This document shows positions 22,101-25,100 of a stretch of 64,000 nucleotides of DNA, in pieces. Source of the DNA: Branchiostoma floridae (lineage: Eukaryota; Chordata; Leptocardii; Amphioxiformes; Branchiostomatidae). A program made the position numbers and the translations under genes. Under the pieces are notes generated by a model. It saw only the letters and a program-made list of their open reading frames with translations, was not told the origin of the DNA and searched no databases. The stretch's first letter is position 1. Each line of letters starts with the position of its first letter. Location: NCBI RefSeq assembly GCF_000003815.2, contig NC_049983.1, positions 9,881,120-9,945,119 of the forward strand, read 5' to 3'.

Positions 22101-25100
22101 CAAAATGGAATGCATGTAAATGTAACTAGCACAGCAAAGAATATGATACAGTGACTACTAATACTAAGACTAAGAGCATAGTTGGCATCAAAAGTTATGA
22201 CTTACATGTAGTGCTTTATGTAGACAATGCATAGCAACAATGTATAGGTTAGGGATAGACTGGGAACAATAGTAGGGGCAATTATGTGAACATGAGGGGA
22301 AAATACGCACAATATGAAAAGAAGCTGTTCTAAAAGAAAAAGGTTTCCAGCTGTATGCCCATGCTATCTTTCTAGTCTATCTCTGACAGAAACTAGTACA
22401 TAAGAGCAGATGCCTTGATACTACACAGTGCATGAATTCTACAAATGTAACACACAATGAGGGGAAAACAACACCAAAGAAATGGTCATGCAGTTTACAT
22501 GTTATGACAATCCAAATGACATCACGACAGGATGATTACATTTGCTTGCAGTAACAGTGTAATAATAAAGACAAGATTGATATGAGATGGCAAAGATTTC
22601 TAAGCTAACACAGTAAAGAAAAAGTGCAAAATGTTGTTAAATGGGCTGTTACATAGCTTGTAACATGACTTTATAAGAGTTTTTTCTTGCTTTAGCATGA
22701 CATTACACAATATACACATGCAAAACATCTGACTGGACATCAGCCAAACAGATCCTTTACTATAAAAAGTTGTAAACTTGTACACGTTAGACCTGCCAGC
22801 TCAGTTTTTAACCAATAAAAAAACTAGTCTGCATATTTATTCCAATATCAGTACAATTATTCCATGAATACATGTACATGTATGAGGCCCTCTCACCCTG
22901 GACATTTTAGGGCATTACAAATTTACATTTCTCATCTCTAATACTGGACCTGCATTTTGTACATGTTTCTGAACCATACTGATACAGGGCTGTCTCCAGC
23001 TTTAAATTGCTGTCTACCAATCATTGTTTTGGAAATCAGGAGCTCATACTGTCATTTTCAGCTTAGGCCATGAAGTTCAGATTTCAGATCTTGAAGTTCA
23101 GATTTTTGGGACAGGGTGAATTTTTGTATCAGTCCCAACAGGCCAATTTTTGTCCTTGAAACAGCCTTGTACTGAACATTTTCCAAAGTGTATCTAAAAC
23201 TACATGTCTAAGTTTAAGTACAGATCTGTCACTTTGCCTTGGAGTTCAGATTTCAGATCTTGAAGATCAGATTTTTGGAACAGGATGAATTTTTCAATCT
23301 GTCCCAACAGGCAAATTTCTGTCCTTGAGACAGCCTTGTACAAAACATTTTTCGAAAGCATTTCTATAAGTACAATACATGTCTAAGTTTGGGTTAACTA
23401 TACAGATCTGTCAGACTTGTACTAGCTGTAACAAACCATACTCACCCTCGAACCACTGTCTATTTCTGAGTAGTCCGGCCGTAGCCATGCCCCTCTCCTT
23501 CTCTTCACTGCACGGAGAGGGGAGAAATTATGGGTTAGCCGGGATTAGCGAAACCGCAAGCACGGCAAGTGACCTACCTTGGAACCAGTGTCAATTTCTG
23601 AATAGTCGTGTCGGTGCCAGTTTCTCCTTCTCTTCACTGTGAACAGACGAGACACCAGGGGAAATTTACATGGACGCTGGTCGACAACAACAATACATTA
23701 TACGTCCCATTGGTTTTACATCCATCCATTGCTGTAAACTATTGTAACAGTGATTGTCCCAATAGCGTCATAATGGTGGTAAAACAAAATCACAAAGTGT
23801 ATTTCATACACATAAATGTCTACAATTATGTGGACAAAGAATTGTACAAGTCACTTCTTCATACTATCATAGTGTGTTCTGCTGAAATTGATACTTACAT
23901 TTTGACAATGATGTATGAGAATTGATTGCACTGCTAACATTAAGCTCCAGTTTTGCATGTAATTACCCTAAGCGTTATGGATGCCATATGGCACCAAATT
24001 TGTTATACTGTATCGTACCTGACATCAAATTCGTACAAGTTTGTACGGTAAAATCAAAGGTAAATCATAATATTACTAAAAGTAAAACTCCCTCACTCAG
24101 TTTATTACATTTCATCATTCATTCAATGTTGCTGTCGAACATACAAATTACATACATTTTATGATTAAGTACTTAAATATTGACAATTTGACATCTACAT
24201 TCCATGTATGTAAATTTCTTGTAGTCTATGTACTAGTTATTCACAAAACAATGATTACAGAAAATAACAAAGCTACATGAAATCAAAAGAAATCATGACC
24301 AAAAAAAAAAAAAACAGGAGACAATAAACAATGGTGTAACTTACAGACAAGAGGCCCGTGGAAGTTGGCACAGTTGGGACAGTGGTACTTGTCTATATCT
24401 GCTGCCTGGTGCTCTTCAACTCCCACACAGCTGGGGAGAAAGTTCAAGTTTTACTTTCAGTCAAAATACATACAGGTTCAGGTACATAGGGAAAAGTGCA
24501 AGGAATTATCGAAAGTAAGTTGTGTGCATTAGTACAATAATCACATGTTGTACCATAATGAAACACTGGCTTTAACTTTGTGGTGATGCTGAAATCGTAA
24601 AAAATGTGAACATACATTAAAACCAATGCAACTGTGGAAGAATATCAAGCATTTCAAAAAGTATCATTTACTTCTTAGTTATGTGGGTGAAGCCACACAT
24701 TTAGTATTCTCTACAGATATTCCACCCGACCAATCAAAACTCAGAAAAAATGGAACCTGTAGCATGCAGTCCACGTTTCCAGCTTTTTGATTGGCTAACA
24801 TTCTGACTGTCTGGTGGATACGTCAGGGGTAAACCTATCAACGCACAGGTCACAAAATGGCACTCGGCAGCGCAGTATCACAAAAAGTAGTTGAAAATGC
24901 AGCAAGTTCAGAGCATCTAATCGGCTAAATAACAACATAAAAATGCCCCACAAAAAAATATTCTAGTATTCTGTCCAAGTTTTAGTGAAATACCTTCGAT
25001 TATAAGCGAGAAAAATAGCCAGCGGAAGCTCGCGGGTTTTTTCAAGCAACGCAATACATTTGTATACCTGTTAAAACGTGCGCTCGTAACATGTTGTAGC

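Follow-up and report, generated by a model that had tools for sequence, protein, structure and literature searches.

The locus considered here raises the question of whether a single histone demethylase gene can offer two versions of the hinge between its reader and eraser domains, and how an mRNA would come to carry exactly one of them. The window, that is, the whole 64,000-nucleotide stretch of Branchiostoma floridae DNA that was analysed, holds on its minus strand, from 26481 down to 15661, the first ten exons and one alternative exon of a KDM7 gene. Every junction in the model is GT-AG, and the frame joined by in-silico splicing is open. The best PDB match of the product is human KDM7A (3kv5, E 1.1e-183, residues 3-390), followed by PHF8 (3kv4, E 5.7e-171) and PHF2 (8f8y, 3.9e-162), with KDM2A behind these. 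A PHD finger is followed by a JmjC domain with KDM7-type sequence, the combination by which a KDM7 histone demethylase is recognized, and TDFHVDFGG in the JmjC domain aligns with TDFHIDFGG of KDM7A and PHF8; the HxD within it is the iron-binding motif. The KDM7 identity proposed in the initial annotation is thus borne out by the PDB matches, and the gene is assigned by homology to the KDM7 (PHD-JmjC) histone demethylases, a class that acts on H3K9, H3K27 or H4K20 methyl marks.

Exon 1 (26375..26481, minus strand, as are all exons that follow) carries the start codon and the first part of the PHD finger according to the splicing model and the PDB match, and exon 2 (24345..24430), with exit phase 1, carries the remainder. 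Exon 3A (23578..23636, 59 nt) encodes a KDM7A-type linker of 20 residues and exon 3B (23446..23507, 62 nt) an alternative linker of 21 residues. The 70-nt intron that separates them (23508..23577) is the shortest of the 10 modelled introns, the next being 156 nt. Exon 4 (21207..21265), entered in phase 0, begins the JmjC-side sequence, and the JmjC domain is encoded by exons 5-10 (span 15661..20756), located at 20756-20596, 19959-19818, 17424-17226, 16732-16570, 16011-15924 and 15767-15661, respectively.

Several other features lie in or beside the gene. A 98-bp tandem array of 6.0 copies (17359-17957, minus strand) runs into exon 7 and provides five extra copies of its acceptor (polypyrimidine tract and CAG) together with the first ~70 nt of the exon. 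Read in the exon 7 frame, each extra copy ends with TAA, which follows ...NWFPD in three and comes after a frame shift in two; four of the five also contain CTG|GTAAGG, which resembles a donor site, after 13 nt. The array has the look of a minisatellite built from part of an exon and carrying decoy splice sites. The same intron contains, at 18723-19584 (minus strand), frames that by eye resemble a retrotransposon reverse transcriptase/RNase H. Divergent to KDM7, frames at 27509-31764 (plus strand) resemble by eye an ornithine cyclodeaminase/mu-crystallin gene, and a simple repeat at 31197-31573 (minus strand) gives the same 11-residue reading in several frames.

Exons 3A and 3B are adjacent homologous internal exons of equal phase with a length difference in threes, as expected of tandem mutually exclusive exons. 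The coordinates, the lengths of 59 and 62 nt, the 70 nt between the exons and the phases of entry (1) and exit (0) given in the initial annotation are all correct, and the borders are GT-AG. Counted by eye, the two exons agree at 46 of 59 aligned positions and differ further by one 3-nt insertion; the peptides share 15 of 20 aligned residues. The first 14 nt are the same in both exons; this stretch is purine-rich and splicing-enhancer-like. The annotation had also held that exactly one of the two exons must be used, and the four splice forms assembled in silico agree: 1-2-3A-4... and 1-2-3B-4... are both open, 1-2-4-5, with neither exon, suffers a frameshift and early stops, and in 1-2-3A-3B-4 the first codon of 3B becomes a TGA stop. 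The pair is therefore frame-locked against both and neither inclusion. The best other ungapped match between exons 2 and 4 reaches 28/59 with 3A as the query and 27/62 with 3B, and therefore no third copy is present there. By the criteria that can be applied to sequence, 3A and 3B are a mutually exclusive pair.

Could an exon such as 3B arise by chance? Exon candidates were defined as having the same phase, a length difference in threes, no stop, AG...GT borders and a similar protein, and 18 exon/neighbour-intron scans were run over the ten modelled exons, with 3B left off the exon list. Four of the 18 scans gave no candidate at all, and among the 409 candidates found in the others only 3B resembled the neighbouring exon: it scored 0.60 of the self-score (0.49 using a later donor), as compared with a best value of 0.02 in the other 17 scans and 0.06 for the best of five shuffles per scan, the best two candidates per scan being listed. 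The splice sites rank high as well on a scoring matrix. Among the 230 GT sites in the stretch from exon 2 to exon 4, the 3A donor ranks 1st and the 3B donor 2nd; among its 169 AG sites the 3A acceptor ranks 5th and the 3B acceptor 3rd, two unrelated AGs outscoring both. In 40,000 simulated runs, with site cut-offs set by the authors, an unselected copy was rarely still intact (good sites, frame and open exon). At divergence 0.55 the fraction was 0.00135 when indels were excluded and 0.00015 when they were allowed; at divergence 0.35, indels allowed, it was 0.00165. Because it is the sole neighbour-like candidate, has high-ranking splice sites and would seldom have stayed intact unselected, 3B is not attributable to chance.

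A related reading is that 3B is a duplicate that is either recent or on its way to being lost, able to be spliced because it inherited its sites but seldom spliced and functionless. Over 20 codons 3A and 3B differ with dN 0.19 and dS 0.55, values that rest on few differences (5.3 synonymous, 7.7 non-synonymous) and that are unevenly spread. The five leading codons are unchanged, synonymous positions included; the five central codons have a dN of 0.81, a heavy change that would suit decay; yet the ten trailing codons show dN 0.09 against dS 0.66, both sites of 3B are strong, and frame and open reading are retained, which the simulated frequencies of 0.00015-0.00165 make a rare outcome without selection. 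Nor has a duplicated intron left any trace beside 3B: the flanking introns of the two exons share 16 of 60 bases before and 16 of 60 after, with local alignment scores at shuffle level, although the lack of intron homology would also follow if the duplicated segment had ended precisely at the exon borders. A functionless 3B is accordingly judged improbable. The preferred reading, to which a probability of about 0.8 is given, is that 3A and 3B arose by tandem duplication and form a mutually exclusive pair that gives two linker isoforms; the pairing argument draws on sequence, frame logic, homology and the kept sites and frame, and from it we infer the splicing, the decay of misjoined mRNA and the changed activity.

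The proposed pathway is one in which exon 2 would be joined to either 3A or 3B and then to exon 4. An mRNA with both exons or neither should be lost by nonsense-mediated decay because it is stopped or frameshifted. Joining of 3A to 3B would probably be disfavoured sterically as well as by frame, since the branch points predicted in the 70-nt intron sit close to the 3A donor. These predictions use the yTnAy pattern, which identifies the A of CTAAC at 23535 (minus strand), at +43 relative to the 3A donor and 27 nt upstream of the 3B acceptor, and the A of CTAAT at 23545 (minus strand), at +33 and 37 nt upstream, respectively. Both lie within the limit of about 50 nt from donor to branch point that passages of two studies treat as the steric threshold (PMC7969005, PMC5740500) and that is derived from vertebrates; a one-mismatch site seen by eye at +50 could escape it. 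In the last 60 nt before 3A the pattern has one match only, too near the splice site (3 nt) to be usable; its matches before exon 4 are at 37 and 11 nt, so yTnAy evidently overlooks real branch points. The frame lock is thus certain, and the short donor-to-branch-point distance is a prediction.

The same features invite the reading that joint inclusion is deliberate, a stop-carrying, decay-prone mRNA serving to lower the KDM7 level by regulated unproductive splicing. The immediate stop on joining 3A to 3B, the GT-AG ends of the 70-nt intron and its consensus branch points would all serve such a role. The distance from donor to branch point is short, however, and a simpler poison exon would not need to encode a good in-frame linker as 3B does, so that this reading is considered very unlikely.

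Elements that might guide a choice between the exons were sought in the RNA. Docking/selector pairing, one of several ways in which such exons may exclude each other, was rejected as a candidate: the longest exact complement of the 70-nt intron measures 7 nt in intron 2 (shuffled mean 7.1) and likewise 7 nt in intron 3 (shuffled mean 7.8). Between intron 2 and intron 3 there is a complement of 13 nt. Among 17 inverted repeats in 21200-24500, no arm falls inside the 70-nt intron. One inverted repeat of 52 nt, 79% complementary with arms 117 nt apart, occupies 21787-22007 in the intron between 3B and exon 4, and is perhaps a mobile element remnant. The pentamer GCATG, an RBFOX-like core, occurs once in 3B (23486..23490, minus strand), not at all in 3A and four times in intron 3 (base shuffles 1.3 +/- 1.1), a distribution that is no more than suggestive of RBFOX-like control.

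At the 3B acceptor, a predicted 9-bp hairpin (23490..23522, minus strand) would place the acceptor AG in its loop, the polypyrimidine-tract arm CCCCUCUCC (23522-23514) pairing with the exon-3B arm GGAGAGGGG (23498-23490), whose final four G include 3B-specific bases. From this comes another reading of the pair, namely that control at the RNA level was the main reason for the divergence of the 3B centre, with the hairpin setting 3B use and the peptide change a by-product. The segment from -40 to +40 at the acceptor folds at -30.7 kcal/mol, where 2000 dinucleotide shuffles gave -22.4 +/- 3.2 (p 0.0135) and 2000 synonymous recodings -20.9 +/- 4.6 (p 0.0285); 3A placed behind the same intron weakens the pairing from -45.7 to -29.0; and the inner stem recurs in 221-, 80- and 132-nt folds, with eight of nine pairs in the 132-nt fold. 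On the other hand, the 221-nt stretch has a z of +0.30, with 122 of 200 shuffles folding equally well or better, the 132-nt stretch yields p 0.10 and 0.14 and the 50-nt one p 0.06, while the outer stem near CTAAC is seen in the 80-nt fold only. By the predicted openness of its polypyrimidine tract, 3B (0.30) does not stand out from 3A (0.21) and exon 6 (0.17); ten acceptors and two segment sizes were tried. Statistical support being mixed, the predicted hairpin is a lead only, and a centre shaped chiefly by RNA-level control appears distinctly unlikely.

What, then, would the choice of linker exon change in the protein? In the alignment with KDM7A, PHF8 and PHF2 the 3A/3B segment is the PHD-JmjC linker, confirming the position between the two domains that had been assigned to it. 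The likeness of 3A to KDM7A also held, 16 of 20 residues being identical by eye to human KDM7A, as did the changed centre of 3B, where NWHRH is replaced by GAWLRP in a peptide one residue longer than that of 3A. By the same count 3B matches the human KDM7A linker at 12 of 20 residues and has one extra. The PHF2 linker is one residue shorter than 3A; the PHF8 linker is three residues shorter than 3A and four shorter than 3B, and a PHF8-like nature of 3B was ruled out on this length and on sequence. Both peptides have a net charge (K/R minus D/E) of +3, and 3B lacks the two histidines present in 3A. For the PHF8 JmjC chains 4do0, 2wwu and 3k3n the match begins no earlier than residue 84, 85 and 92, respectively, and the eraser therefore folds without the linker. 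Both isoforms would share the PHD reader and JmjC eraser and differ in the hinge, so the likely effect of the swap is an altered geometry or altered contacts between reader and eraser. The exchange would be expected to act on domain geometry or hinge contacts rather than on the active site.

It had further been proposed that this linker sets the choice between H3K9 and H3K27 demethylation. Here the support is partial: portions of a review describe a bent PHF8 and an extended KDM7A whose access to H3K9me2 is opposite once H3K4me3 is bound (PMC4224472), and passages of two further papers credit the linker with the K9 versus K27 choice (PMC8856617, PMC11417953). On the strongest version, the pair is exclusive and the linker in use decides whether demethylation at H3K4me3 sites is directed to H3K9 or to H3K27. 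This would fit with the 3A/3B segment being exactly the PHD-JmjC linker, with human KDM7A, PHF8 and PHF2 differing most visibly there within the aligned region, and with the tie, in the reviewed text, between PHF8/KDM7A preference and a bent or extended domain arrangement (PMC4224472). It fits poorly with 3B being longer than 3A, whereas the PHF8 linker is the shorter one, and with the equal net charge of the two peptides; a K9/K27 switch is regarded as unlikely. A wider scheme, and a quite improbable one, is that a single invertebrate KDM7 gene gains two reader-eraser geometries through its linker exon. H3K4me3 reading would then be coupled to one methyl mark in some cells and to another mark in others, a division of labour that in vertebrates falls to paralogous genes, and exon choice would depend in part on a hairpin whose bases also code for the altered hinge.

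The portions of the review covered propose that KDM7A and PHF8 respond differently to H3K4me3 because their domains are arranged differently (PMC4224472). If the exclusive-pair reading is true, two natural isoforms differing only in the reader-eraser hinge would be a clean test of that idea. No report of the KDM7 pair was found in the open-access literature searched; in the portions of that literature seen for PHF8, mutually exclusive exons are met as a splicing-analysis category, and for mutually exclusive exons in amphioxus or in histone demethylases no KDM7 title was among the matches listed. PMC11241480 likewise gave no match to KDM7 or PHF8. Mutually exclusive exon pairs are a kind already known, and the interest of this one is its location in the reader-eraser hinge.

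Among known systems, exons 4a/4b of OGDH resemble 3A/3B in being tandem homologous exons with branch points near the first donor. The donor-to-branch-point distances given in the accessible parts of that study are 25-41 nt, as compared with the predicted 33 and 43 nt in KDM7, but they were mapped experimentally, and the OGDH segment governs a Ca2+ response whereas that of KDM7 is a histone demethylase linker (PMC7969005). Exons Ab/3 of U2AF1 are likewise duplicated, with joint inclusion leading to a stop and decay. Pairing by inverted repeats was considered there too, and, in the portion of the account available, neither stem deletions nor exon swaps in reporters gave the expected outcome, which advises caution over the KDM7 hairpin (PMC5224494). 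Exons 3A and 3B have the similar lengths differing by threes, shared frame, GT-AG borders and similarity by which a human atlas identifies mutually exclusive exons, as far as its criteria appear in the sections covered; of its 629 clusters, 377 are assigned frame lock (length not divisible by three) and 57 steric proximity (<50 nt), and no word starting with KDM or PHF occurs in its main text (PMC5740500). A further comparison is with the linkers of human KDM7A, PHF8 and PHF2 (3kv5, 3kv4, 8f8y), which hold the same position between PHD and JmjC, 3A being nearly the KDM7A linker. If the exclusive pair is real, splicing and gene duplication would vary the same hinge in different lineages: the human variety is distributed over separate genes, whereas here it lies in two exons of one gene.
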